A stretch of DNA of 64,000 nucleotides from Sulfuricurvum sp. (GTDB lineage Bacteria; Campylobacterota; Campylobacteria; Campylobacterales; Sulfurimonadaceae), in assembly GCA_028710885.1 (NCBI GenBank), contig JAQTTG010000002.1:315308-379307 (forward strand), in the 5' to 3' direction. Under the pieces are notes generated by a model that did not search any database, was not told the DNA's origin, and worked only from the letters and a program-made list of their open reading frames with translations. Of the stretch, positions 8,021 through 27,198 are shown piece after piece; position 1 is the first letter of the stretch, and each line of letters starts with the position of its first letter. A program made the translations under genes and the position numbers.

Positions 8021-9079
8021 TTATTTAATAATTTCATCTGCCAGCAAAGATAGGTTCAGATTCATCGTGGAAAAAAGCTTATCTGCCTCAGTTTTTTTCC
8101 CTATATTTTCAATACTGAGTTCTACCAATTCTTCAACGGTATCAGCTTTGTTCATAAGCCCTTCATCAATTAAAAGTTTGTCATAATGGCTGATAAAAGA
8201 TCGTGTCGATATCGTTGGAATTCCAAAATAGCACGCTTCCGAATTCAAGGTTCCCCCTCCACCAATAAATAAATCAGCGTATGCCAACAAATGTTGTACA
8301 ATAATTTTTTCTTGCAACACCGTAACAAAAGGTAAAAGTTCTTGTAATGGTTCTGGTTCATATCTTGGAATTGCAATAAAATTTACATCCATTTTATCAT
8401 TCAAGATTTTCAACCCGTCATATAAAATCGGATATTTTTTCATAACATAACTGGCTTTATATTCCTCTTCTCTAATAATAACAACCGGTTTGGACAAATC
8501 CAAATTATATTTTAAAAGCATCTTCTCAAAATATTTTCTATCCGGTTCAAAATCTGCAAGCCAAATCAACGGGTCTAAAAAATTGTATTGGACAATTTGT
8601 TCTTCTTCCAAACTGAATCGTTCAAATATTTTTGAAGGAACCATATAAGGACGAAAAGCTTTGGTGGATAGCGGAAGTGTCAATCTAGCTTGTGGAAGAG
8701 CTTTTTTAAAATCTGAACCGCAATCTGAGAGCGGAATATCGTAAAAATTATAGATAGGTATTCCCAAACCAAAGGCTACACGATTAGCATCGACTGAACA
8801 CAGACAAACCAACTTTTCCACATTTTTATCTTTGATAAATTCCATCAGAGCAAATTGTCGATCAATACTCGCTTTTAATTTATCTTCGAGCATTGCCCCG
8901 CCAAATTCGCCAACCGTATGAAAAGCGATATCGTGCAATCTTAACAGCTCCACGATTTCACTGTAGCCAGCACCTTCACGCGCGGTTACAAATACCTCTT
9001 GACCTTTGATTTCAAGCATTTTGATGATATTTTTAAAAAACATTACCGATTTAGGGGTAACCAAGTCAAACCATAGCAT
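8021..9079 (-). CDS. DUF354 family protein, GT-B/epimerase-like
   Basis: This 352-residue protein matches the DUF354 family, which shares the GT-B fold with UDP-GlcNAc 2-epimerases and MurG but has no firmly established reaction. Seen in it: WFDLVTPKSVMFF at the N-terminus, a FHTVGEFGG loop near residue 56, VVIIREEEYKASY in the middle, and ADLFIGGGGTLNSEACYFG followed by PTIST near residues 268-290, which resembles the donor-nucleotide-binding loop of GT-B enzymes. It is the last gene of the minus-strand run, four bases after the radical SAM gene. DUF354 members are often found in surface polysaccharide clusters, which fits here, but donor and product are unknown. Confidence 0.75.
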   Translation of the reverse strand: MLWFDLVTPKSVMFFKNIIKMLEIKGQEVFVTAREGAGYSEIVELLRLHDIAFHTVGEFGGAMLEDKLKASIDRQFALMEFIKDKNVEKLVCLCSVDANRVAFGLGIPIYNFYDIPLSDCGSDFKKALPQARLTLPLSTKAFRPYMVPSKIFERFSLEEEQIVQYNFLDPLIWLADFEPDRKYFEKMLLKYNLDLSKPVVIIREEEYKASYVMKKYPILYDGLKILNDKMDVNFIAIPRYEPEPLQELLPFVTVLQEKIIVQHLLAYADLFIGGGGTLNSEACYFGIPTISTRSFISHYDKLLIDEGLMNKADTVEELVELSIENIGKKTEADKLFSTMNLNLSLLADEIIK

Positions 9080-9083
9080 CGTA

Positions 9084-10187
9084 TTAAATTATCCCTTTGG
9101 CTTTATAGTCATCATACCACCACGGGCGCAAAGGTATGATGTCCGTTTCACTGAACATAAATCCATATTTACCCCCATCATAATTCATCATACCAACTGC
9201 TTTTACATTCGGTTCTATCAATTCGCATTTGTTGGCACAAGTATAAAGACAATCTTTTTGACAGACTTTGTTCTCAATCGCATCTAAAACACCTTTTGCC
9301 TGCATACTTTCAAGCGCTGCATCAAAACCACCTGATTCTCTGATGTTTCCTACATTGAGATACGGAAGCCAAAGGAGGCACGGATATAAATTTCCATAAG
9401 GATCAATATCAATATTTTTGGAGCCCATATAACAGTTAAAATCGATGTTTTCACCATCAAATACCGCTTTTTGCAACAAATATTTACTGGCATATCGACC
9501 TTTATCATAATTAATAGCTCTTAATTGTCTGTCTATCTCTGCCAACTCGGCTTCGGTATAGATAAAATCATTTTCACTTAGTTCAGCTTGAGTTACATTG
9601 TCTTTTTTGTTTCGATATCGCTCAGGGTTATATCTCCCATATCCAATATAAAGCCCTACCCCCATCTCTTTTGAAAAATTGTATATCCACTCGATCAAAT
9701 GGTAATTTTCTTTGTAAATCGTAAATTGAAATCTAAGCAAAACACCCGGAATTTTTTTGAGTCTTTCTACCGTCTCTATCGATTTTTTAAATCCGTCTTT
9801 GTGTAATCGTATTTTAGAGTTTGTCTCTTCATCTCCATCCAAAGATATATCGAGACGATAAAGGGGAGATTTCTGTAAAACATATTTAGCTATCTCTTCA
9901 TGTTTGTCTGGAAACCATCCAGTAATAGGAGAATCAATGATAACATCAGGATGATATTTTTGGAGACTGTCAACGACTCTAAGATACGTTGGTGAAAGAT
10001 GTGGCTCACCACCGGTCAAATGTACTTTTTTGAGATCCAAATATTTTGAACTAAAAACACTGTCGAGTTCTTCGCTTGTTAACTCTTCTTTTTGACGATT
10101 GGGAAGTTCCCACATCGAACAATATCGGCAAGGTCCGGGACAAAATTCGCTGACCGTATACGAAATATCTTCTATTTTAAAATCCAT
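9084..10187 (-). CDS. Radical SAM protein with SPASM-like C-terminus
   Basis: This 367-residue radical SAM enzyme has the 4Fe-4S motif C16-x3-C20-x2-C23 (CPGPCRYC), then HLTGGEPHLSP as the SAM-binding GGE motif. The C-terminus is rich in cysteines (CYMGSKNIDIDPYGNLYPC, then CQKDCLYTCANKC), as in SPASM/twitch domains that bind auxiliary iron-sulfur clusters. Such enzymes modify peptides or small molecules; within a glycan island an action on a sugar nucleotide or carrier is possible but not shown. An AAGGTG ribosome-binding site precedes the ATG. It is followed closely by the DUF354 gene and preceded after 15 bases by a second radical SAM gene. Confidence 0.82.
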   Translation of the reverse strand: MDFKIEDISYTVSEFCPGPCRYCSMWELPNRQKEELTSEELDSVFSSKYLDLKKVHLTGGEPHLSPTYLRVVDSLQKYHPDVIIDSPITGWFPDKHEEIAKYVLQKSPLYRLDISLDGDEETNSKIRLHKDGFKKSIETVERLKKIPGVLLRFQFTIYKENYHLIEWIYNFSKEMGVGLYIGYGRYNPERYRNKKDNVTQAELSENDFIYTEAELAEIDRQLRAINYDKGRYASKYLLQKAVFDGENIDFNCYMGSKNIDIDPYGNLYPCLLWLPYLNVGNIRESGGFDAALESMQAKGVLDAIENKVCQKDCLYTCANKCELIEPNVKAVGMMNYDGGKYGFMFSETDIIPLRPWWYDDYKAKGII

Positions 10188-10202
10188 CGTTTAACACCTT
10201 AT

Positions 10203-11663
10203 TTACTCTAATATTTGTCTTTTTAACTTATTTTTTGTAATTTGTTCAATGTGTTCTCGTACACCCATACTAAATTTTGATTCAATCATATCGAGATACA
10301 AAGGATTCTCAAAATATTTATGAAATGCATCATCTCTATATCGAACAATATCTTTTGCACTTAAATACTTCGTTGGAAGAGGGAGCATAGCGTAACCGTG
10401 TTGTGAATAATCTTTCCACTCTTTTGGCAACTCCCAATTCTCTTTGATCGCCATCGTGTAAAGCGCTGATCCCGGATACGCCATCGCGCAATAAAAATTT
10501 GAAAACTCACAATTTAATTCGATTGCCATTTCCAATGTCTCTTGCATCGTTTCGATCGTATCATCAGGCAAACCAAAAATGTAATTGCCAATCACTCGAA
10601 TATCAACATCTTGTATCTGTCGAACGACCCTCTCAATATCTTTGACCCGCATTTTTTTAGATGCACCGTCTCTCACATCCTGATTTGCAGACTCAATCCC
10701 CAATGCCAACCAATTAACCCCTGCTTTTTTCATTATCGCAAGGGTCTCTTCTTTTATTGTATCAACTCTGGCATAGCACCATATATTCAAATCAAGCTCT
10801 TTTTCGATAATCAAATCCATTATTCTCATATAATGGCGCTCATCTAAAACGAACATCTCATCCACGAATTTGATATTTTTAACCCCATACTTGGAATTAA
10901 GTAATTCCAATTCTTCAACAACGCGTTCAGGAGTTCTGTATCGGATACCAGATTTCCCAAAAGGGGCATTGATACAACAAAACGTACACGAATAAGGGCA
11001 TCCAAGACTGGTATAAATAGCGGCATAGGGCATACGATTATTGATATCATCAAAGCAGTGCCAGTTATGGGCTCTGTATTTATCCATCGGAAGCAAATCC
11101 CATGCTGCTATCGGTAATACTTCATCTAGATTTTTGGCAAGCGGTGAGCGAGACGTGTGAACGACCACGTCCCTCTCCCATCTCCAGATACCGGGAACAG
11201 ACGCTATCTCTCGGAACCCTTTTAAAGATTCTAAAAGGGCAAAGAGCGGCTCTTGTTCTTCCCCCTCTATGACAAAATCAACCGCTTCTTCCCGCAGCGT
11301 TCGCTCTGGTAAAGCAGAAGGATGCAGACCGCCAATAACGACTTTTTCAATACCGATATTTTTTAGTTCTGCACAAATCCTGCCGGAAATACTCATATTC
11401 TGCGTACTTGCGGAGGGCTGATTTCCATATACAATAACACAAGCCAACAATGGGTTTAATGCGCGTGCTTTTTGAGCAGTTTCCAGCGGTGTAATATTCT
11501 CAGCCTGTGCGTCTATGATCGCAACACTGAACCCTTTATTTCGCAGATACGCAGCAAAAGATGCTGTCAAAAAAGGAGGTTCTATGGCAGAGATGTCGGC
11601 ACCGAGATCCTGATAAATCTGTTTGCGATCACCGGGATTGATAAATACGATATCAATCATCAT
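10203..11663 (-). CDS. B12-binding domain radical SAM protein
   Basis: This 486-residue protein has an N-terminal cobalamin-binding domain (residues about 1-150, with AYLRNKGFSVAIIDAQ and VVIGGLHPSALPE) followed by a radical SAM core with C222-x3-C226-x2-C229 (GCPYSCTFC). This architecture is that of BchE/P-methyltransferase-type class B radical SAM enzymes, which methylate unactivated carbons or rearrange rings using methylcobalamin and SAM. Later motifs KFVDEMFVLD and WLALGIESANQD fit the barrel. ATG at 11663 or the next ATG at 11660 can serve as start. The 5' end overlaps the stop of the transketolase C-terminal subunit gene, so it belongs to the same transcript. The substrate is unknown. 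Confidence 0.87.
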   Translation of the reverse strand: MMIDIVFINPGDRKQIYQDLGADISAIEPPFLTASFAAYLRNKGFSVAIIDAQAENITPLETAQKARALNPLLACVIVYGNQPSASTQNMSISGRICAELKNIGIEKVVIGGLHPSALPERTLREEAVDFVIEGEEQEPLFALLESLKGFREIASVPGIWRWERDVVVHTSRSPLAKNLDEVLPIAAWDLLPMDKYRAHNWHCFDDINNRMPYAAIYTSLGCPYSCTFCCINAPFGKSGIRYRTPERVVEELELLNSKYGVKNIKFVDEMFVLDERHYMRIMDLIIEKELDLNIWCYARVDTIKEETLAIMKKAGVNWLALGIESANQDVRDGASKKMRVKDIERVVRQIQDVDIRVIGNYIFGLPDDTIETMQETLEMAIELNCEFSNFYCAMAYPGSALYTMAIKENWELPKEWKDYSQHGYAMLPLPTKYLSAKDIVRYRDDAFHKYFENPLYLDMIESKFSMGVREHIEQITKNKLKRQILE

Positions 11664-12606
11664 GTCCCTTTAATGCACGGATAATATTTTGGAGTCCCAT
11701 ATCAAAATGCTCGTGCAAAGAGTCTCTCGAACCTATCTCAAAGCTGTATTTTCCATGCATCGCCAACGGAGTATAAAACTTTGAAAGTTTTATTGTATTG
11801 ATAAAATGAAGTATCTTGCTATCCAATCCTCCGGCATTCCCTATCCCCTCTTCCAACGAAATCAATACATCATATCCGCGTAATGCTTTCTCAAGTGATT
11901 CATAATTAAATGTTGACGGTAAAAAAAGATCGATGACTCCAACATTTTTTCCAACAAGTTGAAGTTTATTCGCGTATTCTAGGGCTTTGTGGGTCATATA
12001 GCCTGTAGAAATGATAACACCGACTTCCCCCGCTTTAACAACTCTAAAACCTTGCGCAAAGTCAATCTCTTCTTGTGCCTCAATATTAAAAAGAGGTTTT
12101 GCATCAAATCGAAGATAGCGAATTCCTATCTTTAATGTCTCATTCACATAATGTTCGGCACTTGAGTAATCGCTGGGACTGAAAACAGTGATATTCGGCA
12201 ACGTCCCCATAATGGATAAATCTTCCAAACAATGGTGTGTCGGACCACTCATATCGTAACTAAACCCGGCACCCACACCGATAATATTCACACACATCGG
12301 ACGAATTTGGGAGAGAACAGACAAATTGACACGGATTTGTTCATAGCATCGCATGGTGATAAACGGAGCGATAGCGTACGCATAGACTTTGAATCCTTCT
12401 AAAGCAAGACCGGTAGCTACATTGATTAGATTTTGCTCCGCAATTCCAACATTGATAAAACGATCAGGATAAAGTTCTCTGAGTTTATCCAAAGCGGGAG
12501 AGCCAAAATCGGCTGACAGAAAGAATATCGTTTTATCTTCTTCCATTTTAGATATAAGCGTCTCGATAAATACATCTCGCATAGCTTTGGGTTTAATTGC
12601 GTTCAT
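11653..12606 (-). CDS. Split transketolase, C-terminal subunit
   Basis: This 317-residue protein is the pyrimidine-binding plus C-terminal half of a transketolase/DXP-synthase-like enzyme (Transket_pyr then Transketolase_C). It has DKLRELYPDRFINVGIAEQN, where the glutamate before QN normally activates thiamine diphosphate, and later TGYMTHKALEYA and SLEEGIGNAGG. The ATG at 12606 with GGGGGA before it is preferred to an in-frame TTG one codon earlier. It overlaps the stop of the N-terminal subunit gene, so the two are made together. A split pair inside a sugar island, next to a ColD-like dehydratase, argues for transfer of a two-carbon unit to a sugar nucleotide rather than pentose phosphate metabolism. 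Confidence 0.88.
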   Translation of the reverse strand: MNAIKPKAMRDVFIETLISKMEEDKTIFFLSADFGSPALDKLRELYPDRFINVGIAEQNLINVATGLALEGFKVYAYAIAPFITMRCYEQIRVNLSVLSQIRPMCVNIIGVGAGFSYDMSGPTHHCLEDLSIMGTLPNITVFSPSDYSSAEHYVNETLKIGIRYLRFDAKPLFNIEAQEEIDFAQGFRVVKAGEVGVIISTGYMTHKALEYANKLQLVGKNVGVIDLFLPSTFNYESLEKALRGYDVLISLEEGIGNAGGLDSKILHFINTIKLSKFYTPLAMHGKYSFEIGSRDSLHEHFDMGLQNIIRALKGHDD

Positions 12607-13417
12607 CAATCCCCCTTACAATCTCATCTATCTCATCCGGTTTAAGCGATAGAATATGACTGAGTGGATGAGTCTCCAAAAATGGTACCCCTTTACCTTT
12701 GATGGTTTGCGCAAAAAGAACTTTTGGTTTTGCGGTTTTCATCTCTTTGAGAGAAAGGAGACTCTTTTGAACAGCGCCAACATCATGTCCCTCTACACTA
12801 AAACATTCAAATCCAAAAGCCTCAAAACGCTTGGAAAGCGGAGAAGTATCGAGAATATTTTTCGTAAAATCGAGCATTGAAGCTTTATTATCATCTACTA
12901 TAACAATGAGGTTATCCAATCGATGATGTGCCGCAAACATAATTGCTTCCCAATTTGATCCTTCATTCAATTCCCCATCTCCGACGAGTACAAAAACAGA
13001 AGCATCAGAACCTTTCGCGCGCAATGCGACCGCCATTCCTGATGCTACACCGAGTCCATGTCCTAATGAACCGTTAATTGTTTCATAGCCCGGAATAATA
13101 GGATCAGGAATCCCACCCAAAAATGACCCCGGCTTACAAACATTTTCAAGCTCTGATTTATCGAAAAATCCCAAATCAGCCAATATGGGATACATCGAAA
13201 TCGATCCATGCCCCTTACTGATCACAAAACGGTCTCGATTTTCCCACAGCGGAATTTTTGGATCGTATTTTAAAACACCGCCATAATACAAAGCCACAAA
13301 AACTTCGATAGGTGAAAGAGATGACGCAACCCTTGTTTCAATAGCTCTTTTATGGATCAGCAAAGTCTCTTTTCTGATCTCATTAGCTTTGTTTTCAAGA
13401 AATTTTGATTTATTCAT
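12593..13417 (-). CDS. Split transketolase, N-terminal subunit
   Basis: This 274-residue protein is the thiamine-diphosphate pyrophosphate-binding half of a transketolase. It shows RFVISKGHGS near residue 65, NGSLGHGLGVASGMA near 115, and the ThDP motif that begins GDGELNEGS and closes about 26 residues later with VDDN. ATG at 13417 is favoured over a GTG one codon upstream by the GGGTAG ribosome-binding site. Its stop overlaps the C-terminal subunit. Split transketolases are known both in archaeal central metabolism and in some surface-sugar and antibiotic gene clusters; the neighbourhood supports the second type. Confidence 0.88.
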   Translation of the reverse strand: MNKSKFLENKANEIRKETLLIHKRAIETRVASSLSPIEVFVALYYGGVLKYDPKIPLWENRDRFVISKGHGSISMYPILADLGFFDKSELENVCKPGSFLGGIPDPIIPGYETINGSLGHGLGVASGMAVALRAKGSDASVFVLVGDGELNEGSNWEAIMFAAHHRLDNLIVIVDDNKASMLDFTKNILDTSPLSKRFEAFGFECFSVEGHDVGAVQKSLLSLKEMKTAKPKVLFAQTIKGKGVPFLETHPLSHILSLKPDEIDEIVRGIDERN

Positions 13418-13447
13418 CACTACCCTTACACCATATTTGTCGTTGTA

Positions 13448-14386
13448 TCAAACATTGCTGTATTTGCTGTTAGTGATTATCTTGTACCCTTTGATCAACT
13501 CTTTAATCCCCATATCCAACGAGTAAATAGGTTTGTATCCTGTTGCTTCGATTTTATCATTACTAACAATATAATCTCTTTGATCCGGATCTTTGCCGAT
13601 AGGGGCTTCCATAATCGTAAAGTTTGGGAGATGTTCTTTAATTTTTGCACACAGTTCAAGCTTGGATAAGTTGGCATCGCTCAATCCCACATTGTAAGCT
13701 TCATTTTTCATCTGCTCAAAATTATCGATCGCATGAATAAAAGCACGTGCGACATCTCGGATATGGATGTAATTTCGTTTAAAATGCCCCTCAAACACAA
13801 CAATAAAACGATCATTTACCGCTCGATACGTAAAATCATTTACCAAAAGATCCAATCGCATACGAGGAGCCATACCAAAAACCGTTGCCAGTCTGAATGT
13901 AATAGCATTACCTCTGTTCAAAACAATCTCTTCTGCTTCAACTTTGGTTTTTCCATACGTTGAAATCGGTCGAAGGGGTGTTTTTTCAGTGCAGTAAATC
14001 CCTTGTTCGCCGATGCCGTAACCACTATTAGTCGTAGGATATATAATTTTTTGCTCTTTAGACGCCAATCGGGTCAACATTTCGATAGCATCTCTGTTGG
14101 TCGTAACCGTCCCAATAGCGTCTCTGCTGCACAATGGTGCACCAACGAGCGCTGCTAGGGGAATAATAATATCAAATTTAGGCAATATAGATTTTAATAT
14201 CCCCTCATCTCTGGCATCCCCCTTGATAACCTCAAAGTTTTCATTGACACAACACTCCAAAAGACTGTTTTGCCCAAAGATAAAAGTATCCATTACAGTC
14301 ACTTTATGCCCTTGTTCAAGAAGAGCAGGCACTAATATGGAACCGAGATATCCGGCTCCTCCGGTAATCAATATCGTTAAACTCAT
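13448..14386 (-). CDS. NAD-dependent sugar epimerase/dehydratase (extended SDR)
   Basis: This 312-residue extended SDR binds NAD(P) through ITGGAGYLGS at its N-terminus and carries the active-site Y-x3-K as STYGKTK near residue 147, with TTNSGYG as the Ser/Thr region and RNYIHIRDVARA and NVGLSDAN typical of nucleotide-sugar epimerases and dehydratases. ATG at 14386 with GGAG seven bases before it is preferred over the TTG at 14398. It lies between the ColD-like and transketolase genes, so a 4,6-dehydration, epimerisation or keto-reduction of the same NDP-sugar is plausible. Exact reaction not readable. Confidence 0.85.
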   Translation of the reverse strand: MSLTILITGGAGYLGSILVPALLEQGHKVTVMDTFIFGQNSLLECCVNENFEVIKGDARDEGILKSILPKFDIIIPLAALVGAPLCSRDAIGTVTTNRDAIEMLTRLASKEQKIIYPTTNSGYGIGEQGIYCTEKTPLRPISTYGKTKVEAEEIVLNRGNAITFRLATVFGMAPRMRLDLLVNDFTYRAVNDRFIVVFEGHFKRNYIHIRDVARAFIHAIDNFEQMKNEAYNVGLSDANLSKLELCAKIKEHLPNFTIMEAPIGKDPDQRDYIVSNDKIEATGYKPIYSLDMGIKELIKGYKIITNSKYSNV

Positions 14387-14428
14387 ATTTTTCTCCAATC
14401 CTATTAAATAATCAACAAAATGCTTTTA

Positions 14429-15589
14429 CTAAAAATGTTTTAGTGTTTCATACAGATAATCAATCTCTTTTCTGATATCGTGTGGATGATTCCCGACAAA
14501 CCAGCCTCGTTCATGTGCTATGTCGGCATTTTCACGGCTATGAACACTGTAATCATAATACTGAATCACATCGTGTTTTAAAAAACACCCTCCTGTGATA
14601 ATCCGATGTCCAATAGATGCCTCTTGAAGTTTTATCAATACCTCTTTTCTCTCCAAAGCCAGTTCCGGCCGAACAATCATGGTAAAACAAAACCAAGAAC
14701 TCTCACCTAACTCTTTTTGGATAATAAATCGTTTATCCTCTTTGAAAAGTGACACGAAATGCTCTGCATTTTTACGTCGTGCTTCGATCAATGTGGGCAG
14801 TTTTTTCATCTGTTCCAATCCGATTGCACCATGCATCTCTCCGGGGCGAACATTGTATCCCGGTACGATAAATCGGTATGCTTCAAAAAAATCATCCTCT
14901 TTTTTCTCAAATATCGGGCTATCAGCGTCTTGACCTCTCGTCCATCCGTGATTTCTCATCGCTTTTAAAAGATTATAAATCTCTTTATCATCGGTTAAAA
15001 CCAATCCACCTTCCATGGTGGAGATATGATGCGAAAAGAATGTACTAAACGTATTAACAAGGCCTCTTGTACCTGTGAATCTCCCCCCTATTTTTGCCCC
15101 CATCGATTCGCAGTTGTCATCAAACAAAATAAGGTTTCGTTCCTCGCACAGCTTTTCGATCGCATCAAAATCACATGGATTTCCCAGAATGCTTACCGTT
15201 ACAATCATTCGTGTATTTGGAGTAATCGCATCTTTTAGTTTTTCAATATCATAATTAAGTGTCTCAAGATCGACATCAACAAATCGAAGTTTTAGCCCAT
15301 ACTGCTGTAATGGATGAAACGTAGTTGCCCAACTGATACATGGAACGATCACTTCATCTCCAGCTTTTAGCGGATTCTCTTTTTTATAAAACAGTGATGC
15401 TACCGCGATAAGATTTGCAGAAGAACCTGAGTTAGCCATAACCGCATATTTTTTCCCGAAATGTGCAGCAAAAGCTTCTTCAAATGCAGCTACATTTTTA
15501 CCCATAGTAAACATATCACTTTCCACAACGCGAGTGATTGCTTCACGTTCAGCATTATCCCATGTTGAACTCGCTAATTCGTATTTCAA
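14429..15589 (-). CDS. ColD/RfbH-like PLP-dependent sugar 3-dehydratase
   Basis: This 386-residue protein belongs to the DegT/DnrJ/EryC1 fold, but the Schiff-base lysine is replaced by histidine: the segment FFSHHISTMEGG places His188 where PseC in this window has Lys179. In GDP-4-keto-6-deoxy-mannose 3-dehydratase (ColD, 388 residues) and RfbH/E1, this same replacement turns the enzyme from an aminotransferase into one that removes the C3 hydroxyl of a 4-keto-6-deoxy sugar. Other motifs: ANSGSSANL in the cofactor region and DDNCESMGA with the PLP aspartate. RfbH's iron-sulfur cysteine cluster is not seen, so the ColD type is nearer. The start is TTG after AAAGGA. It follows the GHMP kinase gene by 12 bases. 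Confidence 0.85.
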   Translation of the reverse strand: MKYELASSTWDNAEREAITRVVESDMFTMGKNVAAFEEAFAAHFGKKYAVMANSGSSANLIAVASLFYKKENPLKAGDEVIVPCISWATTFHPLQQYGLKLRFVDVDLETLNYDIEKLKDAITPNTRMIVTVSILGNPCDFDAIEKLCEERNLILFDDNCESMGAKIGGRFTGTRGLVNTFSTFFSHHISTMEGGLVLTDDKEIYNLLKAMRNHGWTRGQDADSPIFEKKEDDFFEAYRFIVPGYNVRPGEMHGAIGLEQMKKLPTLIEARRKNAEHFVSLFKEDKRFIIQKELGESSWFCFTMIVRPELALERKEVLIKLQEASIGHRIITGGCFLKHDVIQYYDYSVHSRENADIAHERGWFVGNHPHDIRKEIDYLYETLKHF

Positions 15590-15601
15590 AATGCTTTTCC
15601 T

Positions 15602-16591
15602 TTAATGATTTGGTTCATATACAATGACTTCAGATCCACCGGAGTCAAATTTAAATGGGATATGCAAATACCCATGAAGCGCTTTTTTCACACTCTCTTG
15701 CTGCTCTTTAGGGACAAAGAATAACATAAACCCTCCCCCGCCTGCACCCAGCAATTTTCCGCCTAAAGCACCCGCAGATATTGCTGTATCGTACATACTA
15801 TCAATCTGAATATTACTGATTTTATCTGAAAGAGACCGCTTTAGCTTCCACGTTTCGTTCAGCATCTCACCAAATAATTTAAGATCTTTTTCAGAGGTCA
15901 ATATCTCTAGCGCATCATCAACCAAATCTTTCATAATATGAAGATTGGATTCATTGAGATGAATATTTTCAATTTGATCTCGGGCAACTTCACTGGCTAT
16001 CCGTGAAATCCCTGTAAAAAATAGCATTAATGAGCCTTCGAATTCTTCAAGTCTATTCTTAGGGAGAATAACCGGATTGACGATAATCTCACCGCTTTGT
16101 AAAAACTCGATCATATTTAGTCCGCCATACGCCGCAAACATTTGATCCTGAGAACCAACATGTTCTTGTATAAGATTTTGTTCAATATGGATTGCCGTTT
16201 TTGCCAAGACCTCTTTTGAAATCATTTTTCCTTCAAGCGCATATAAACTTTTAATCAACCCTACCGTAAAAGCAGAACTCGATCCCATACCGCTACGTGC
16301 TGGAATATCGCCGTCATGATGAATCGATATCCCATAATCGACATTAAAAAATTTCAATGTCTCCCTCACGCTTGGATGCACTATTTCGTCCAGTTCTATG
16401 ACATTTTCCTGCTTGGAATAAACGATTCTGTGTTTATGCTCAAAAAAAGGGGGAAGTCTACGGATATTAATATAGGAATATTTATTGATTCCTACCCCAA
16501 GTACCTTCCCCCCATGTTTCAGATAATATGACGGGTAATCAGTTCCGCCTCCAAAAAAAGATATTCGATGTGGTGTCTTAGATATAATCAT
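15602..16591 (-). CDS. GHMP-family sugar kinase, HddA-like
   Basis: This 329-residue cytoplasmic kinase begins SKTPHRISFFGGGTDYP, the signature of D-glycero-D-manno-heptose 7-phosphate kinase (HddA) and L-fucose kinase relatives, and has the GHMP phosphate-binding loop as PARSGMGSSSA near residue 98 and LLGAGGGGF in the C-terminal half. HddA phosphorylates C1 of heptose 7-phosphate on the route to GDP-heptose. Its 5' end overlaps the end of the HddC-like nucleotidyltransferase gene, a pairing that supports the heptose reading. GmhA and GmhB, the other enzymes of that route, are not in this window, so another sugar remains possible. Confidence 0.83.
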   Translation of the reverse strand: MIISKTPHRISFFGGGTDYPSYYLKHGGKVLGVGINKYSYINIRRLPPFFEHKHRIVYSKQENVIELDEIVHPSVRETLKFFNVDYGISIHHDGDIPARSGMGSSSAFTVGLIKSLYALEGKMISKEVLAKTAIHIEQNLIQEHVGSQDQMFAAYGGLNMIEFLQSGEIIVNPVILPKNRLEEFEGSLMLFFTGISRIASEVARDQIENIHLNESNLHIMKDLVDDALEILTSEKDLKLFGEMLNETWKLKRSLSDKISNIQIDSMYDTAISAGALGGKLLGAGGGGFMLFFVPKEQQESVKKALHGYLHIPFKFDSGGSEVIVYEPNH

Positions 16592-17273
16592 TTAACTCTT
16601 TTTTTGCTTTTTCATAATCTTCCGGTACCCCTATATCGACAAAGTAGCCATCACATAAATAGGCTGTAGGTTTTATTCTATGTAAATATTTTTCTAAAAA
16701 ATCCTTTTCGAATGAAAATCTCTCTTCATCAATGTCAAAAGTATCAAATAAATCGTTATCAATCAAATATGCTCCAGCATTGATTAATCCAAATTTTTTA
16801 AATTTTTTCTCTTCGAATGACGTAATAATCGAATCATCTACCTCAACACTGCCATACCTGTCAAAATTTTGCATAGGCTTTAATCCGAGGGTGATTTTCG
16901 AAGATTGGCTCTTATGCTTTTCATACAATTCGACCAGACTAAAATCAAAAAAAGTATCTCCGTTTAACACCAAAACCGCTTTTTCTACAGTGTACGCCAA
17001 CGCTTTTTTAATAGCACCTCCGGTGCCGAGAGGTTTCTCCTCACTGCTGTACACTATTTCCATTTCCAAAAATGAATTTTTAAAATATTCCTTGATAAAT
17101 GCTTGTTTATACCCGACAGAAATAATCACCTTTGTGACTCCCCATTTCTGTAAAAAGATCAACAAATACCATAAAAAAGGTTTGCCATTAATATCGGCCA
17201 TTGCTTTTGGAATATCTTTAATGACACTTTGTAATCGTGTTCCAAATCCTCCGGCTAATATTATTACTTCCAA
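16578..17273 (-). CDS. Sugar-1-phosphate nucleotidyltransferase, HddC-like
   Basis: This 231-residue protein begins MEVIILAGGFGTRLQSVIKD and continues PKAMADINGKPFL, the nucleotide-binding and metal-binding signature of sugar-1-phosphate nucleotidyltransferases; NGDTFFDF is the second metal site. The combination with an adjacent HddA-like kinase matches D-glycero-D-manno-heptose 1-phosphate guanylyltransferase, giving GDP-heptose, although GDP specificity cannot be proved from sequence. The 80 AT-rich bases upstream of it (17274-17353) are the widest gap within the minus-strand island between 9 and 27 kb and may hold an internal promoter. Confidence 0.8.
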   Translation of the reverse strand: MEVIILAGGFGTRLQSVIKDIPKAMADINGKPFLWYLLIFLQKWGVTKVIISVGYKQAFIKEYFKNSFLEMEIVYSSEEKPLGTGGAIKKALAYTVEKAVLVLNGDTFFDFSLVELYEKHKSQSSKITLGLKPMQNFDRYGSVEVDDSIITSFEEKKFKKFGLINAGAYLIDNDLFDTFDIDEERFSFEKDFLEKYLHRIKPTAYLCDGYFVDIGVPEDYEKAKKELNDYI

Positions 17274-17353: not shown

Positions 17354-18550
17354 TTACCTTTTATCGGCAAAAATATAATTTTTCACTACCCACTCTCCAA
17401 AAGGGAGGGCGGCCGTAAATGCAGGTGAAACGGCATTTAAAACATGAATGCTGTATTCATCTGCCTCTACAACAAAATCCTGCACAAGCTCAAAGCTCTC
17501 TTTATTAAGTAACTGAGCTCGTATCCCCGGCTTGCTCCACTCTCTAAAATTGATCCCATCAAGCTGTTTGACTAATGATGCCGCCAAAGAGACAAAATAG
17601 TTTTTGTTGTATTTTTTCATCTCTTCGATCGCCAGTGTTCTGAAACCAAACGCATTCTTAATAAACAATTTTAGCTCATACCCAACAATACTCCAAAGTT
17701 CACGAAAAGAAATTCCATCCATACCTGTATAATTTTCTCTCCAAAAAGCAGGAATAGCCGTGGGTCCTATTTTGACCATACCCTCAACGGTAATCGTGTA
17801 GTGCACCCCTAAAAATGGATTCTTTAAATTGGGAACAGGATAAACATTGGTTCGGACAGGACTACTCATACCGGAATATTTGAGATATATCCCCTTGAAA
17901 GGGATAATAGTATAGTGCTTACCAAAACCAAAATCATGCGCAATTTTATCGGCATATAGTCCTGCGCAGTTAATCACCTTGTCGCTCTTTACTGCCCTGC
18001 CGCTTTTTAAAACGATCCCCTCTTCACTTTTGGAAACATACGCATCTCCAAAAATAAACTTTACCCCTAGATTTTCCAATTTTTGTTTCAATACATGACA
18101 AATCATACTCGGGTCTACTGTCGAAGTATCAGGAGAGTGGAGCGCTTTTTTATAGGTTTTAACATTTGGATCGATCAAAAATAGTTCATCTTCATCGATA
18201 ATCCTTACATCAACTCCATTTCGAATCCCTCTTAGATATAACTCTTCTATTCCTGAAAGTTCTGTTGCGTCTTTTGCGACTACGACTTTTCCGCATTTAT
18301 TAATCACGAGAGCATTTTCTTCGCAAAACACTCTCCAAGCAGCATTTCCATCACGCGTAAATCTTGCTTTTAAAGAATCTGCACTATAGTAAAATCCTGC
18401 ATGAAGGACTCCACTGTTTCTACCGCTTGAGTGCATTGCTTCTTTTAACTCTTTTTCGACAATAGTTACTTCAGCATCCGGTTCATGTGCTTTGATGGCC
18501 TTTGCTATTGATAATCCGATAACACCCGAGCCGATCACTGTATACGTCAT
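17354..18550 (-). CDS. FAD-dependent oxidoreductase, LhgO-like (DAO family)
   Basis: This 398-residue flavoprotein binds FAD through TVIGSGVIGLSIAKA at the N-terminus and has SSGRNSGVLHAGFYY near residue 45, the signature of L-2-hydroxyglutarate dehydrogenase (LhgO) within the DAO family. The central part includes VINCAGLYADKIA and PFKGIYLKYSG, also typical. LhgO oxidises L-2-hydroxyglutarate, but family members in surface-sugar clusters may act on other 2-hydroxy acids. It lies nine bases after the CgeB-like glycosyltransferase gene. A link to glutamate/2-oxoglutarate use by the neighbouring ColD-like or glutamine-dependent enzymes is conceivable but unproven. Confidence 0.8.
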   Translation of the reverse strand: MTYTVIGSGVIGLSIAKAIKAHEPDAEVTIVEKELKEAMHSSGRNSGVLHAGFYYSADSLKARFTRDGNAAWRVFCEENALVINKCGKVVVAKDATELSGIEELYLRGIRNGVDVRIIDEDELFLIDPNVKTYKKALHSPDTSTVDPSMICHVLKQKLENLGVKFIFGDAYVSKSEEGIVLKSGRAVKSDKVINCAGLYADKIAHDFGFGKHYTIIPFKGIYLKYSGMSSPVRTNVYPVPNLKNPFLGVHYTITVEGMVKIGPTAIPAFWRENYTGMDGISFRELWSIVGYELKLFIKNAFGFRTLAIEEMKKYNKNYFVSLAASLVKQLDGINFREWSKPGIRAQLLNKESFELVQDFVVEADEYSIHVLNAVSPAFTAALPFGEWVVKNYIFADKR

Positions 18551-18559
18551 TTTAACTCT

Positions 18560-20971
18560 TCACTTTATCTTGATTAATTTCCAAAATGTCAAATCCTGCT
18601 TGATCAAAAATATATGTTTTGGTTCACACACGGCTGTAATTTTTCTGTAAATATCTTCGAAATAGGTTTCAGATGCTATTGCTACCGAATCAGATACGGT
18701 GAGTAAAGAAAGAAATAGCTCACTTGAAATCACTGATCGATTTTCAAACAATGCTTCTTGCCATTTTTCACCATCATCAACATACCCTTTGATTTTGTTT
18801 TGAGCGCTTTTCCAAAAGTCCAAACGACTCAGTTCTTGAGAAGTTTCACCCAATGCATACACCCAAAGGTTTTCTTCTGAGGATGCATCATAAGGGATTA
18901 ATATATTCCCTGTTCTGATACTTAAACACTCATTTAAAGGATGCTCATCTAATACGGCCAAACTATTAAGATTACTGCCAATAAAATAATTGATTGTTTT
19001 CTCAAAATATCCATTAGCTTTGCAAAATGCCAAAGCATCACATACCCTCGGATTTTTCTCTCTCAACCAAAAGTGCAGCAAAGTGAAAAACTCTTCCTCC
19101 CCTTTTTCAATCAAGGCATGAAAGTATTGGTTGCTGTTTTTATCTCCCAATTTGATTAAATTTGTTCTGTGGTAGTAGAACTCAAACGTATCATTTTGAA
19201 GCCATTGTTGATCTAAAAAAGCAACTTTATACGGCATGGTTCGGGATAGCTCTTTTGCATATTGCTGTCCTTTTTTTAGATCTCTATTACGAAAGGCCAT
19301 ATCGCTTAAAATCGTATAAGAACCACCAAAATCAGGGTGAAGTGCTATCGATTTCAATGCTCTTTTTTCACCCTCTTCCCACTGCTTTTCATATAATGCA
19401 CACAAGCTTCCATAATAATGGACACTCGCATATACGATGCTTTTGAGCTGCTCAAATGAATTATCTGATTGTTCTTTTAAATACTTTACCAAATAATACG
19501 AATAAGCATCATAATCAAACCCTTCCGGATCAAAACTAACTGGATCTAAAACATCATCACTGCGTGGAGTGAATACCACCGTATTGTATTTTTCCAGACA
19601 ACGGTAAATTTCCTCGCCCAATAAATAGTTATTAGCAAATACTGCCATTCTAAGCACATTAAAAGTAAGCACCAATGGCAACGGTTGTGTTTGTTTTAAA
19701 AAAGAAAACAGTTCTTGCAAGTCATAAGAAATGTTTTCTTTCGAATAAAAAGCAAACTTTTTCGGCTTACGTCTAGAACGTAAAAATATTTGTTCGCAAA
19801 GCGCTCGTTTTTGAGGATTTCCTTCCGCAATATTTTCCTCGCGCAACACTAAACTCTTATGTGAAAACATATTGACTATCGCGCAGAATTTTAAAAATCG
19901 TATGGAAGAAAATGGCTTGGCGAACAGATGCTCTATTTTGTTCCGAACCTGTTTAAAATCGATCTTCAGCGCATCATAATTTTTTAGTATCTTCTCTATG
20001 ACCTCTTGAATATTATGATTATTGTAAACAAATACACCCTCATCTTCTGAAAAAAACTGTGCAATATACTCATCTTCCGGTACCAGAGCGATAGACCCTG
20101 CATACAACGCTTCTACCCCCCGAGTAGACAACAGAGGGCGTCTGGCATGAGTTATTACCGAAATTTTGGCTCGACTCAATAAAGTTAAATACGATTTTTT
20201 TGAAAAAAACTTCTCTATAATGACAATATTGGCAGAGTGCTTATACTTTACGATTTGATCCATGACCATAACTTTATCAGGCCACAGAGGATGAAAAGCG
20301 TTCCCTGTTACCAACAGATCAATATCCTTTTCATCGGATGGTTCATACGATACCGTCGATAGTACATCCCCAAGACAATACGAAAATATCTTTTTATCCG
20401 GAAAGATTTTCTTCATTTCGGCATGATCGCCCTGCCCCAAAACAATCAATGAATCAAAAGCTTTTAATTTCTCATAAGCTCCGGCAAAAATATCCCAATC
20501 GGCACTAAAAGCCATATTTAAAGTCTTATTGTGAGCGTGTAAAGGGAGATATTCCGGGCCACATGTAATAGAAAAAGCAGGATTATTGTCCGTCAGTCGA
20601 ATTTTTGCATCCGTATAATCACAATCAAAGCGGTAGAAAAATATCGGGTCAAACAGCTTTAAATCTACATCAACCCCATTTTTGATACTCTCCATTAAGG
20701 TTTTCGCGAGGTCTGAATACTCGATTTTTTCTAAAATTCTCAGCGCTTCATCATCTGCATTTAAAAACCAGTATCCTATAGCTTTATAAAATAGGAAATG
20801 CTCGTCTTGCGCATCACCTATCATTTTAATCCCTTTTTGTATATCCCCACTCAAAATATAAGCACATCCCTTTAATGGACTATCGGGAGCATTTAACATT
20901 ACATATACAAAATTTCCATCCGCAAATGCTTGCTCAAAATTGTCGTAAATAATTTCAGGAGTTCTAATCAT
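18560..20971 (-). CDS. CgeB-like GT-B glycosyltransferase with TPR-like C-terminal half
   Basis: This 803-residue cytoplasmic protein has a GT-B-like region (about residues 130-380) with DIDLLVTGNAFHPLWPDK and SVITHARRPLLSTRGVEALYAG, matching the CgeB/spore-maturation type of glycosyltransferase. The C-terminal half is helical and contains TPR-like repeats such as ALKSIALHPDFGGSYTILSD and MAFRNRDLKKGQQYAKEL. TPR segments in glycosyltransferases often bind protein acceptors. ATG at 20971 overlaps the stop of the cytidylyltransferase gene (ATGA), so it is preferred to an in-frame ATG at 21007. Donor and acceptor are unknown; direct coupling to the phosphoramidate cassette suggests it works on the same glycan. 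Confidence 0.75.
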   Translation of the reverse strand: MIRTPEIIYDNFEQAFADGNFVYVMLNAPDSPLKGCAYILSGDIQKGIKMIGDAQDEHFLFYKAIGYWFLNADDEALRILEKIEYSDLAKTLMESIKNGVDVDLKLFDPIFFYRFDCDYTDAKIRLTDNNPAFSITCGPEYLPLHAHNKTLNMAFSADWDIFAGAYEKLKAFDSLIVLGQGDHAEMKKIFPDKKIFSYCLGDVLSTVSYEPSDEKDIDLLVTGNAFHPLWPDKVMVMDQIVKYKHSANIVIIEKFFSKKSYLTLLSRAKISVITHARRPLLSTRGVEALYAGSIALVPEDEYIAQFFSEDEGVFVYNNHNIQEVIEKILKNYDALKIDFKQVRNKIEHLFAKPFSSIRFLKFCAIVNMFSHKSLVLREENIAEGNPQKRALCEQIFLRSRRKPKKFAFYSKENISYDLQELFSFLKQTQPLPLVLTFNVLRMAVFANNYLLGEEIYRCLEKYNTVVFTPRSDDVLDPVSFDPEGFDYDAYSYYLVKYLKEQSDNSFEQLKSIVYASVHYYGSLCALYEKQWEEGEKRALKSIALHPDFGGSYTILSDMAFRNRDLKKGQQYAKELSRTMPYKVAFLDQQWLQNDTFEFYYHRTNLIKLGDKNSNQYFHALIEKGEEEFFTLLHFWLREKNPRVCDALAFCKANGYFEKTINYFIGSNLNSLAVLDEHPLNECLSIRTGNILIPYDASSEENLWVYALGETSQELSRLDFWKSAQNKIKGYVDDGEKWQEALFENRSVISSELFLSLLTVSDSVAIASETYFEDIYRKITAVCEPKHIFLIKQDLTFWKLIKIK

Positions 20972-21714
20972 GGAATAAACATCTCGCTCTCCATATCTTG
21001 GATGCAATCAATTTCAATCCAGCCGCCATGAACCAACACTGCTTTAATAGGCATCAACCGATCTATAACCATTTGTAAAAAACTCGTCATATACATTTGA
21101 TCAAAATTCTTTCCATCATACATTGCATCCTTATCGAGAGAATCATAAAACCCTATGATATGAGGAAAGACCTCTTTTTTTATTTTAATTAATCCCATAT
21201 ACTGACCTTGAATATCATCATAGCTTTTCGGCTTTTTACCAAGCTCGACGATATTTCCGATATGATCTAGTTTCATCGTTTCCGCATCTGCTAAAGGATC
21301 ATCCATTCTATGCTTCCATAGTTCAAGCCACTCTAAATCCACCGATGTAGAAATAAGAGATGGTTCAAAAAGCACCTTTTGTAAGATCGAATCAGTGTAC
21401 ATAATATCCGCGTAGGAGATAATCAAGTCATCATCCATCCATTTTTTGGCGCAGAAAAAAGTGCTGACCATGTTTGTCTTTTCATACTCTTTATTTTCAA
21501 AAAAAACAATTTTTTGATCTTTGAGGTGCTCTTTTAATACATCGATTTTATAGCCCCCAACAATCGCTATGTCCTCAATTCCACAATGATGCATCGTCCC
21601 TAAAATAGTAGTGATAATCGATTTTCCTTTATACTCGACCATACATTTTGGTCTATCGTCCGTCAGAGGTCGGAGTCTGGTCCCTGCTCCTGCTGCTAAG
21701 ATGATTGCTTTCAT
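20968..21714 (-). CDS. CTP:phosphoglutamine cytidylyltransferase-like (Cj1416 type)
   Basis: This 248-residue nucleotidyltransferase starts MKAIILAAGAGTRLRPLTDD and continues PKCMVEYKGKSII, a LicC-like CTP-dependent signature; SYADIMYTD supplies the second acidic site. In C. jejuni, Cj1416 couples CTP with L-glutamine phosphate to form gamma-glutamyl-CDP-amidate on the way to the O-methyl phosphoramidate capsule modification. The same neighbours (amidotransferase, glutamine-kinase-like, kinase, methyltransferase) occur here in coupled order, which is the main ground for the specific call. ATG at 21714 is preferred over 21762 because it starts the conserved motif and GGAG lies just before it. 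Alone it could be a phosphocholine or sugar cytidylyltransferase. Confidence 0.78.
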   Translation of the reverse strand: MKAIILAAGAGTRLRPLTDDRPKCMVEYKGKSIITTILGTMHHCGIEDIAIVGGYKIDVLKEHLKDQKIVFFENKEYEKTNMVSTFFCAKKWMDDDLIISYADIMYTDSILQKVLFEPSLISTSVDLEWLELWKHRMDDPLADAETMKLDHIGNIVELGKKPKSYDDIQGQYMGLIKIKKEVFPHIIGFYDSLDKDAMYDGKNFDQMYMTSFLQMVIDRLMPIKAVLVHGGWIEIDCIQDMESEMFIP

Positions 21715-21716
21715 TG

Positions 21717-22331
21717 TTATGCTCCAAAAAAATTTCGTATAAAATCCATATCTGATTTGCAAAACGGTGTCTCTCTCTCAGGATGCCACATAATTCCGGC
21801 GATAGGCAGGGTAGTATGCTCAACCGCCTCTATTGAATCATCCGAGCTTCGGGCAGCAACACGCATCATTCCAGCTTCGCTCAGTGCATAATTATGATAA
21901 CTATTACGTTCTCCGCCGATAATACCGAATCGACTTTCACTAACAGATATCATATGTTTGCAGCGAACATGCTCCGATACTTTGTTAATTTTGCCTCCAA
22001 AAAATTCTCCTAAAAACTGCATTCCTCTGCAAATCCCTAAAATCGGTATGTTATTTGCCATTGCAAACTCTACCAACGCGCGTTCATATTCATCTCTAAT
22101 CTTATTCTCGCTCAAAGGGTTTATACAGCTTAAATCATTACCGCCACTCAGAATAATTCCCGACGGTGATAATGTTCGCAAAAAATCAATACTCGTATCC
22201 ATGTACGAAAAAACAACCAAGTTTATATGCAGCTTTTTGCTCAGTTCAAACCAATTCATATCTAAAGCCATGCGCATTTCACCGCTGCTGCTCTCTCTAT
22301 AAATTCTAGGTGTTATTACTATGGTTTTCAT
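21717..22331 (-). CDS. Class I glutamine amidotransferase-like hydrolase (Cj1417 type)
   Basis: This 204-residue protein has the class I amidotransferase fold with catalytic cysteine in ILGICRGMQFLG near residue 98 and the His-Glu pair in MWHPERETP near the C-terminus, resembling PuuD-type gamma-glutamyl hydrolases. In C. jejuni the matching enzyme Cj1417 hydrolyses gamma-glutamyl-CDP-amidate to glutamate and cytidine diphosphoramidate. ATG at 22331 overlaps the upstream stop as ATGA and has AGGGTGA before it, so it is chosen over 22346. It is followed two bases later by the cytidylyltransferase gene. The specific reaction is inferred from context. Confidence 0.8.
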   Translation of the reverse strand: MKTIVITPRIYRESSSGEMRMALDMNWFELSKKLHINLVVFSYMDTSIDFLRTLSPSGIILSGGNDLSCINPLSENKIRDEYERALVEFAMANNIPILGICRGMQFLGEFFGGKINKVSEHVRCKHMISVSESRFGIIGGERNSYHNYALSEAGMMRVAARSSDDSIEAVEHTTLPIAGIMWHPERETPFCKSDMDFIRNFFGA

Positions 22332-24658
22332 GAAATCACCCTGCATACCCTAGAAGCCGCATCAAGCTCAATAACGTTAGCTCTAGTATAGTTCGAAAAT
22401 AGTTTCTCTCCGGCACCGATAATCGCAGGAATCCCGGATTCTGCGCACCGGATAGCCATATGCGAATTAACACCGCCATAACAAGTAATAAGTCCGGCTA
22501 TCCCCTTGGTCAATAAAAAATCATACCCCGGATCAGCGTTTTCTATGCAAACAATTTTATCTTTTATGCTCTCTTTCTCATTCCAAATACTCACTTGGGC
22601 AACTACTGATTTCAATGTTATAAAGTTCGGTTCCCCCTCCTCAAGAGAGTAATGATATATATCTTCTGAAGTTACCAGCAAAGAGGGAAATTTTACGGCT
22701 TGCGTAAATACGTACTCATGCTTATTTCTTCTTATCTCTTTATCAAATAACTCTGCAACATCGGATGCCTCTACCGAAGAGTAAAGTCTCATAATCTCAC
22801 CGATAGATAGATGTGCCATGTCGGCACGACTAATACCGAGCCGTGCTCCGTATTCCTCAATATAAACTAAAACTTGGCTAAGGCTTTTGGTAAAAATCAA
22901 CTTTGCGTATTCTCTGGCCTCTATCGCTTCTCTTATGAAATTCGTTAATTCATCAAAACTTATTTCAAGATTATTTTCCAAAAGCATTGACGCAATCATC
23001 TCTTTTTGAAAAGGTTCCCATTCAAAGTCAATACTTTTACAATCATACGGTTTGCTGTTAAAGTAAGCATCAAAAGCCTCGGCATAGGTCAGAGAATTTA
23101 TATCATACGTGCCAGGTCTTAAATGTCCGTATTCTTCCAAAAAGTCATCTTTTGACATCTTTTCCTCAAACACACGCAGAAGGTCGGTACTCAACCTTTT
23201 GGAAACAGTATTGAGCGAGTATAGAAAATTTTGTTTTTGATTTACACTCAAAATACCCAAACTCACAAATGAATCCAGAAACTGTGTTGCCATAAAAGCG
23301 GCTCGTGCTATACCGGCAAACGGTAATGTACCATATCTCTTACACTCCTCTATCAGCCAATAAATCTTATCCACAAGCGATAAATGCGAATCAACGATAG
23401 CTCTATGTCTCTTTTTTAATTGTTCGACTTTTGCAATGTCTTTTTTGTACAATCCGCCATCTTGTTTAATCACATTATTAGTCAGTTGTAAAAGCGAAAA
23501 CTCTATCTGTTTGAGTTCATCCTCTCTAAAAGAATAGCCTCTTAGCTTTTGGAGTCTCGCAGGTAAATCAAGGGTATAACACGAAAATAGGATCTCAAAT
23601 TCAACCTTGTCATGAAAATGAGGTGACCCCTCCAAACTATCCAAATAATAGTCAATCAATTTGCCTGCAATCTCTTCATCCAGTCCTTTAGGGACAAAAG
23701 AGTTAAACGAAACCCTCACATCAATATACGGAACCCCTAAAAAGTCTACTAATAGAGGATGTGATCTTAGATTTCTATACCCGAAATTATCTCTCTGATA
23801 TGCCCAAACTGAATCAGTCACCAGCTCTTTATACAGAGACAATGCCAGTTTTTTGGGTCTTATCCCTATGATTTCCGCAGGATTCCAATCGGGCATAACC
23901 CCATAAATAACTCTCGAACCCAAAAGTGCCGGATGCGGTATGGATAGTTTTTTAATCTTTTTAGAAACTTTATGTAAAGCATCGCTCATATCAATGCATG
24001 ATAAATCCAATGTTGTTTTCGATGTTAGTGCTCTTACTTGTAAAAGATACAATTTGTCATTTATAAATGCAAACTCAATATCCAATGCAGGATTGTCCAA
24101 AACGCTTTCAAGCTCTTTTGCCATATGAACAAGTGCTTTTTGGTACCCCTCCTCAAGCTCAGACTCTCTATGTTTAAAACATACAAACGTTTTTAACGTA
24201 TTTTTATGCCCAGCAGTAACACCGTCCGTGCTTCCTGAGAAATCCATATTGGCTATTAAATAAGGCGCAAAGGTATCTGGGTCCGAAGTAAACAAAACAC
24301 CGCTGCAACTGACATCAGAGAGCATTGGTTGTATGAAAAATTCATTTTGAATATCTAAGTCGCCATACGAAGCTATAACACTTTGTATAGCGGATGCACA
24401 TTCAACTTTGTTTTTAGCTTCTATATTTGGAAGGCTAAGAAAACAACCTGCATGTGACGCATCAAACCCGTCCTCTTCTTTAGCACTGGAGCGTACAATC
24501 ACCTTATCAAAAGTTTCCGCTATGCTTTGGAGAATACCCTCTTGATCATTCAAAAACTCTTCTATTGAAAAACACAATTGCGGCAGTACATGACAACTCA
24601 ATAAGTGACCTTCTAATTGTGCCAATGTCTTTGCTTTTGATGCTAACTGAAGTTTCAT
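22328..24658 (-). CDS. PEP synthase-like L-glutamine kinase (Cj1418 type)
   Basis: This 776-residue protein has an N-terminal ATP-grasp domain of the PEP synthase/PPDK type (VIVRSSAKEEDGFDASHAG near residue 53, FIQPMLSDVSCSGVLFTSD near 105) and a C-terminal mobile phosphohistidine domain with CYGGVNSHMAIRC, His733 being the expected phosphorylated residue. The middle lacks the PEP/pyruvate barrel of true PEP synthase. This matches Cj1418, the L-glutamine kinase that makes L-glutamine phosphate, AMP and phosphate from ATP and glutamine as the first step of MeOPN synthesis. Its start shares TAATG with the methyltransferase stop. Confidence 0.84.
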   Translation of the reverse strand: MKLQLASKAKTLAQLEGHLLSCHVLPQLCFSIEEFLNDQEGILQSIAETFDKVIVRSSAKEEDGFDASHAGCFLSLPNIEAKNKVECASAIQSVIASYGDLDIQNEFFIQPMLSDVSCSGVLFTSDPDTFAPYLIANMDFSGSTDGVTAGHKNTLKTFVCFKHRESELEEGYQKALVHMAKELESVLDNPALDIEFAFINDKLYLLQVRALTSKTTLDLSCIDMSDALHKVSKKIKKLSIPHPALLGSRVIYGVMPDWNPAEIIGIRPKKLALSLYKELVTDSVWAYQRDNFGYRNLRSHPLLVDFLGVPYIDVRVSFNSFVPKGLDEEIAGKLIDYYLDSLEGSPHFHDKVEFEILFSCYTLDLPARLQKLRGYSFREDELKQIEFSLLQLTNNVIKQDGGLYKKDIAKVEQLKKRHRAIVDSHLSLVDKIYWLIEECKRYGTLPFAGIARAAFMATQFLDSFVSLGILSVNQKQNFLYSLNTVSKRLSTDLLRVFEEKMSKDDFLEEYGHLRPGTYDINSLTYAEAFDAYFNSKPYDCKSIDFEWEPFQKEMIASMLLENNLEISFDELTNFIREAIEAREYAKLIFTKSLSQVLVYIEEYGARLGISRADMAHLSIGEIMRLYSSVEASDVAELFDKEIRRNKHEYVFTQAVKFPSLLVTSEDIYHYSLEEGEPNFITLKSVVAQVSIWNEKESIKDKIVCIENADPGYDFLLTKGIAGLITCYGGVNSHMAIRCAESGIPAIIGAGEKLFSNYTRANVIELDAASRVCRVIS

Positions 24659-27145: not shown

Positions 27146-27198
27146 ATTTTCACTTATTACCAAAATGAACTCCCATCTATTCTCTTACTATATATCTA

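Follow-up and report, generated by a model that had tools for sequence, protein, structure and literature searches.

Do radical SAM (rSAM) enzymes take part in making flagellar glycans, and on what would they act? The question is raised by a 64,000-nt stretch of a Sulfuricurvum sp. genome (contig JAQTTG010000002.1; hereafter the window), in which two adjacent rSAM genes lie within a glycan island. Our search of the literature, restricted to open-licence papers, yielded no example of flagellin glycosylation that includes a radical SAM step.

Gene run and its setting

A sequence-only reading of the window had described two rSAM genes closing a glycan operon, coupled to transketolase genes. Both open reading frames are real: the products (Table 1) carry the expected Pfam domains, keep the CX3CX2C core cysteines throughout their families, and are conserved in other genera or phyla at 70–89% identity for the SPASM-type protein and 46–68% for the B12-binding protein. 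They are genes 19 and 20 in a run of 21 minus-strand genes, from 33478 to 8021, which is likely to form one transcription unit, since all 20 junctions fall between -65 and +80 nt. The link to transketolase stands, with an 11-nt overlap between TK_C and the B12-rSAM gene; the SPASM gene is spaced 15 nt from the B12-rSAM gene, but the last gene of the run is that of a DUF354 protein, separated from SPASM by a 4-nt gap. The run is bordered by flagellin genes and a Maf-like gene at one end and by FliD with PseB-C-F-G-H-I, the genes for pseudaminic acid, at the other; these names come from reading the translations, and those in relatives from matching to the window. Judging by genome location alone, a flagellar glycan would be the target of the rSAM enzymes.

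Several features of the island are observations in their own right. Two very similar flagellin genes stand in tandem next to it (35629-37104 and 37313-38788). The phosphoramidate (MeOPN) genes form a complete set of the kind seen at the capsule loci of C. jejuni, although the window has it within a flagellin and pseudaminic acid island; such a set also adjoins DUF354 in two other loci (L071, L078) and the B12-rSAM gene on Azospirillum plasmids (L093, L108, L110). A sulfotransferase-family gene accompanies it both in the window (25946-27163) and in A. lipoferum (L108, 7234-8328), with 43% identity over 231 residues. The best profile of the third rSAM protein of the run is that of RiPP C-methyltransferases (TIGR03975, 135 bits, under the cut-off).

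Table 1. Genes of the run discussed in the text, in window coordinates
Feature	Position	Strand	Evidence
DUF354 protein, possible GT-B-type sugar enzyme; last gene of the run	8021..9079	-	Pfam DUF354 5.9e-41
Radical SAM protein with incomplete SPASM domain, 367 aa	9084..10187	-	Pfam Radical_SAM 2.4e-10, SPASM 5.6e-5
B12-binding radical SAM protein (B12-rSAM), 486 aa	10203..11663	-	Pfam B12-binding 1e-16, Radical_SAM 1.5e-22
TK_C, split transketolase, C-terminal half	11653..12609	-	Pfam Transket_pyr 4.1e-24, Transketolase_C 5.4e-10
TK_N, split transketolase, N-terminal ThDP-binding half	12593..13420	-	Pfam Transketolase_N 7.7e-37
Cj1427-type GDP-heptose C4-dehydrogenase	13448..14398	-	PDB 6vo6/6vo8, 407 bits over 311 residues
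ColD-type pyridoxamine-phosphate 3-dehydratase, His replacing the PLP Lys (FSTFFSHHISTMEGG)	14429..15589	-	PDB 2gms/3gr9, 453 bits
HddA-like heptose-phosphate kinase, GHMP family	15602..16591	-	profile matches; PDB 3k85, 4usm
HddC-like heptose-1-phosphate nucleotidyltransferase	16578..17273	-	NCBIfam HddC 268 bits, cut-off 300
L-2-hydroxyglutarate oxidase LhgO	17354..18550	-	NCBIfam NF008726 322.9 bits, over cut-off 299
Glycosyltransferase-like protein, 815 aa	18560..21007	-	weak Pfam Glyco_trans_1_2
Phosphoramidate (MeOPN) set: cytidylyltransferase, gamma-glutamyl-CDP-amidate hydrolase-like, glutamine-kinase-like, methyltransferase, APS-kinase-like	20968..25952	-	
Third radical SAM protein of the run, B12-binding, 789 aa	27199..29568	-	Pfam Radical_SAM 1.2e-14, B12-binding 9.1e-8

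The B12-binding enzyme and the heptose cassette

Both the predicted B12-binding domain and the rSAM core of the B12-rSAM protein exceed the Pfam cut-offs, and the cysteines C222, C226 and C229 are invariant in the family. Orthologs at 60–68% identity were found in three other genomes of a sample of 397 Campylobacterota genomes, and a plasmid search added four at about 47–52%, from Azospirillum and Solidesulfovibrio magneticus. The eight proteins group in a single clade (support 100/100), apart from more distant relatives at ~23–34% identity. In two other flagellar glycan islands, which also hold SPASM and DUF354 genes, a B12-rSAM of ~860 aa carries a fused family-2-glycosyltransferase-like N-terminus (L036, 6483-9077; L037, 5258-7840).

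Every one of the eight orthologs, in genomes or plasmid clusters of three phyla (Campylobacterota, Azospirillum, Solidesulfovibrio), is accompanied by HddA, an HddC-like protein, a Cj1427-like dehydrogenase, a 3-dehydratase with His for Lys and a split ThDP enzyme. Across the carriers the cassette HddA is 50–71% identical and the Cj1427-like dehydrogenase 60–78%. The ColD-like DegT-family enzyme of the window has the His of ColD 3-dehydratases at the PLP-Lys position (motif SHHIST), and it is found at 58–73% in all cassettes other than that of S. magneticus, where a 26% relative keeps the His in AHIIST (alignment by eye). The split ThDP enzyme is of transketolase type in Campylobacterota and A. 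argentinense, and pairs a PDH-E1alpha with a transketolase-C type protein in A. lipoferum, A. ramasamyi and S. magneticus. Genes for GmhA or GmhB turn up repeatedly among the cassettes, LhgO is also present within the S. magneticus cluster, and weak relatives of the 815-aa glycosyltransferase-like protein adjoin the B12-rSAM genes in all three Azospirillum. The window has the C. jejuni-type activation set together with a C4-dehydrogenase that matches 6vo6, the structure of Cj1427; HddA and HddC score under the NCBIfam equivalog cut-offs, so their substrate specificity is putative. A gmhA over its cut-off lies elsewhere in the genome.

All four B12-rSAM carriers among the 397 genomes belong to the eight with a close TK_N (p 7e-8, ignoring phylogeny, at a threshold of at least 55% identity set after the hits had been seen). 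HddA at 68% or more and C4-dehydrogenase at 74% or more were found only in B12-rSAM carriers among the 11 genomes tested. In one carrier (G284) the main cassette and the B12-rSAM gene lie apart, the latter next to another, more distant TK pair, and in another (G040) it lies on a separate short contig, so that the link there is one of co-occurrence. The p values, here and below, treat genomes as independent though they are related by ancestry; recurrence across several phyla is the stronger argument. A role of the B12-rSAM protein in sugar biosynthesis through a radical step, as the sequence-only reading had suggested for both enzymes, is thus well supported by gene context, and the protein is probably a dedicated tailoring enzyme of the GDP-heptose pathway.

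A candidate pathway

Taken together, the cassette genes suggest a pathway to GDP-3-deoxy-4-keto-heptose, to which a two-carbon branch would then be added; we infer the reactions, their order, the branch and the attachment to flagellin from gene content, conservation, motifs and family matches. HddA and HddC would provide GDP-D-glycero-manno-heptose, the Cj1427-type enzyme would oxidise C4 with 2-oxoglutarate, LhgO would recycle the by-product L-2-hydroxyglutarate, and the ColD-type enzyme would remove the C3 hydroxyl. In vitro, Cj1427 dehydrogenates GDP-manno-heptose at C4 by a ping-pong mechanism in which 2-oxoglutarate is converted to L-2-hydroxyglutarate, and together with a PLP C3-dehydratase it yields GDP-3-deoxy-4-keto-heptose (PMC10680097). 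The same by-product from the Cj1427-type enzyme would explain the LhgO gene in the operon. The split transketolase would next place a two-carbon unit on the C4 ketone. Yersiniose and similar branched sugars are made on this principle, with a ThDP enzyme following a 3-dehydratase. We propose the branch from function and not from orthology, because three clusters have a PDH-E1-type ThDP pair in place of transketolase. The B12-rSAM enzyme most likely acts by a radical step on the GDP-heptose or on the two-carbon branch: after or just before branching, a 5'-deoxyadenosyl radical would change one or the other, with C-methylation or an HpnJ- or AprD4-like rearrangement or diol dehydration as candidate reactions. 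Recognition of the C4-dehydrogenase led us to abandon an alternative role for the B12-rSAM as a substitute for a 4,6-dehydratase.

The cassette could instead act on a hexose derived from GDP-mannose, giving a yersiniose- or colitose-like branched sugar, while the heptose genes serve a different residue. In E. coli the substrate of ColD is the hexose GDP-4-keto-6-deoxymannose, and a true gmd (595 bits) is present elsewhere in the genome of the window, which makes such a hexose route possible; the strength of the ColD match and the Fcl-like genes of several cassettes point the same way. We nevertheless consider it unlikely, as all cassettes include a Cj1427-type C4-dehydrogenase and so need no 4,6-dehydratase, Gmd-type motifs are absent from the neighbourhood of every B12-rSAM cassette, and GmhA/GmhB genes recur in the cassettes.

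The SPASM protein and DUF354

The SPASM domain of the second enzyme exceeds its Pfam cut-off (23.8 bits versus 21.5). The canonical auxiliary-cluster cysteines of SPASM proteins number seven; this protein has an incomplete set, with C252, C270, C309, C313 and C317 in nearly all homologs and C321 in close orthologs only. Six close orthologs (70–89% identity; L021-L024, G371, G283) are directly followed by DUF354, and for relatives at ~40% in G058, G056, G040 and G180 it lies no more than a few genes away, in three cases with an AsnB-like gene between. At a threshold of at least 36% identity, set after the hits were seen, all six carrier genomes have the SPASM–DUF354 combination in pseudaminic acid islands (p 5e-5, ignoring phylogeny); a 30% relative with no DUF354 hit (G428) was left out of this count. 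DUF354 itself occurs in 78 of the 397 Campylobacterota genomes; in the examined cases without SPASM it is mostly found with AsnB-like and methyltransferase genes or the phosphoramidate set, and the plasmid search found none. By its distribution, the SPASM protein is thus a putative accessory to DUF354, and the two would act as a separate add-on on a glycan sugar in pseudaminic acid islands. A radical sugar step by the SPASM enzyme is plausible.

DUF354 weakly matches the profile of the UDP-GlcNAc 2-epimerase type (31%, E 5e-4); it was also compared with PseG, with no usable profile relation (1%). In L021, L022 and L037 the gene immediately before SPASM is of the UXS type (motifs ACPASP and RACYDEGKR), and in L023 such a gene is close by. 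This suggested that the window protein might belong to a UDP-xylose route, an idea rejected because its genome lacks UXS (best 29%). Four islands (L033, L034, L035, L038) each hold a pair of divergent SPASM paralogs, in tandem or nearly so, 36–41% identical to the window protein.

That a peptide, for example flagellin or the precursor of a RiPP, is the substrate of the SPASM protein or of both enzymes is quite improbable. Among solved structures, the SPASM protein does come closest in sequence profile to peptide maturases (SkfB, 1.4e-9; 5wgg, 9e-6), and in fold searches with its AF2 model (pLDDT 64) BlsE, PqqE and SkfB are tied (Z 17.0-17.9), leaving sugar and peptide enzymes indistinguishable. 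Against this, no NCBIfam peptide-maturase cut-off is reached (51 bits versus 650), and 8021-16578 contains no precursor-like ORF for either enzyme between its large genes: there is no intergenic small ORF, and the conserved small ORFs among those listed all overlap large genes. Homologs down to 24–30% identity lie in polysaccharide clusters, and the pattern that would have spoken against the earlier reading, with most family members next to peptide precursors and away from sugar genes, was not seen: all orthologs of the two proteins with readable surroundings are in glycan clusters.

Also improbable is the functional pair tied to transketolase that the adjacency, with 15 nt between the genes of one run, had suggested, with both enzymes acting in turn on the same sugar: a B12-type partner does recur in the L036 and L037 runs as the glycosyltransferase fusion (26% identity), but the partners segregate, SPASM with DUF354 and B12-rSAM with HddA, C4-dehydrogenase and ThDP enzyme, no close HddA or Cj1427-type gene being found in the four SPASM genomes tested (G371, G283, G058, G180) and no SPASM gene near the B12-rSAM in L043, L045 and L093-L096.

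Implications and comparison with known systems

Taken furthest, the B12-rSAM would remodel a nucleotide-activated heptose that a split ThDP enzyme also branches with two carbons, giving an undescribed surface sugar of at least nine carbons from a chromosomal or plasmid cassette spread over three phyla, a proposal that we hold to be quite possible though short of probable. If this is true, nucleotide-heptose biosynthesis would gain both radical chemistry and carbon branching, the L-2-hydroxyglutarate oxidase in a glycan operon would have an explanation, and a natural source would be predicted for GDP-3-deoxy-4-keto-heptose, which was obtained by mixing C. jejuni enzymes of different serotypes (PMC10680097).

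The C. jejuni GDP-heptose pathways (Cj1427, HS:5 C3-dehydratase, HddA/HddC; PMC10680097) share with the cassette the activation genes, a homologous C4-dehydrogenase, a PLP/PMP 3-dehydratase and 2-oxoglutarate as oxidant. They serve a capsule, whereas the cassette lies in a flagellar island; the words radical, branched and transketolase are absent from the main text of that paper, while the cassette has a B12-rSAM and a split transketolase. HpnJ, a B12-rSAM said to contract the ring when the cyclitol ether of hopanoids is formed (PMC8590665), gives the best NCBIfam profile for the window protein (TIGR03471, residues 49-460) and has a sugar-like ring as substrate; the match reaches 165 bits against a cut-off of 577.6, and no hopanoid genes were recognised nearby. 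The closest solved sequence is that of AprD4, the radical SAM diol-dehydratase of apramycin (PDB 6fd2, 2e-18), whose substrate is an aminosugar; the similarity lies mainly over the rSAM core, with 93.6 bits against 500 for the AprD4 profile NF033070. A single-sequence AF2 model of the B12-rSAM, made without an alignment (pLDDT 44.6), was not used. For the SPASM protein, BlsE, DesII and BtrN, rSAM enzymes acting on sugars and cyclitols, mark the fold range of the model (Z 17.9, 15.6 and 14.2); at 12–14% identity, and with peptide maturases scoring equally, this implies no function. In yersiniose (YerE) and trioxacarcin-type branching, a ThDP enzyme puts two carbons on a deoxy 4-ketosugar, the step that we propose for the cassette; here, by contrast, the ThDP enzyme is of the transketolase or PDH-E1 type, its context is that of a GDP-heptose, and a B12-rSAM accompanies it.
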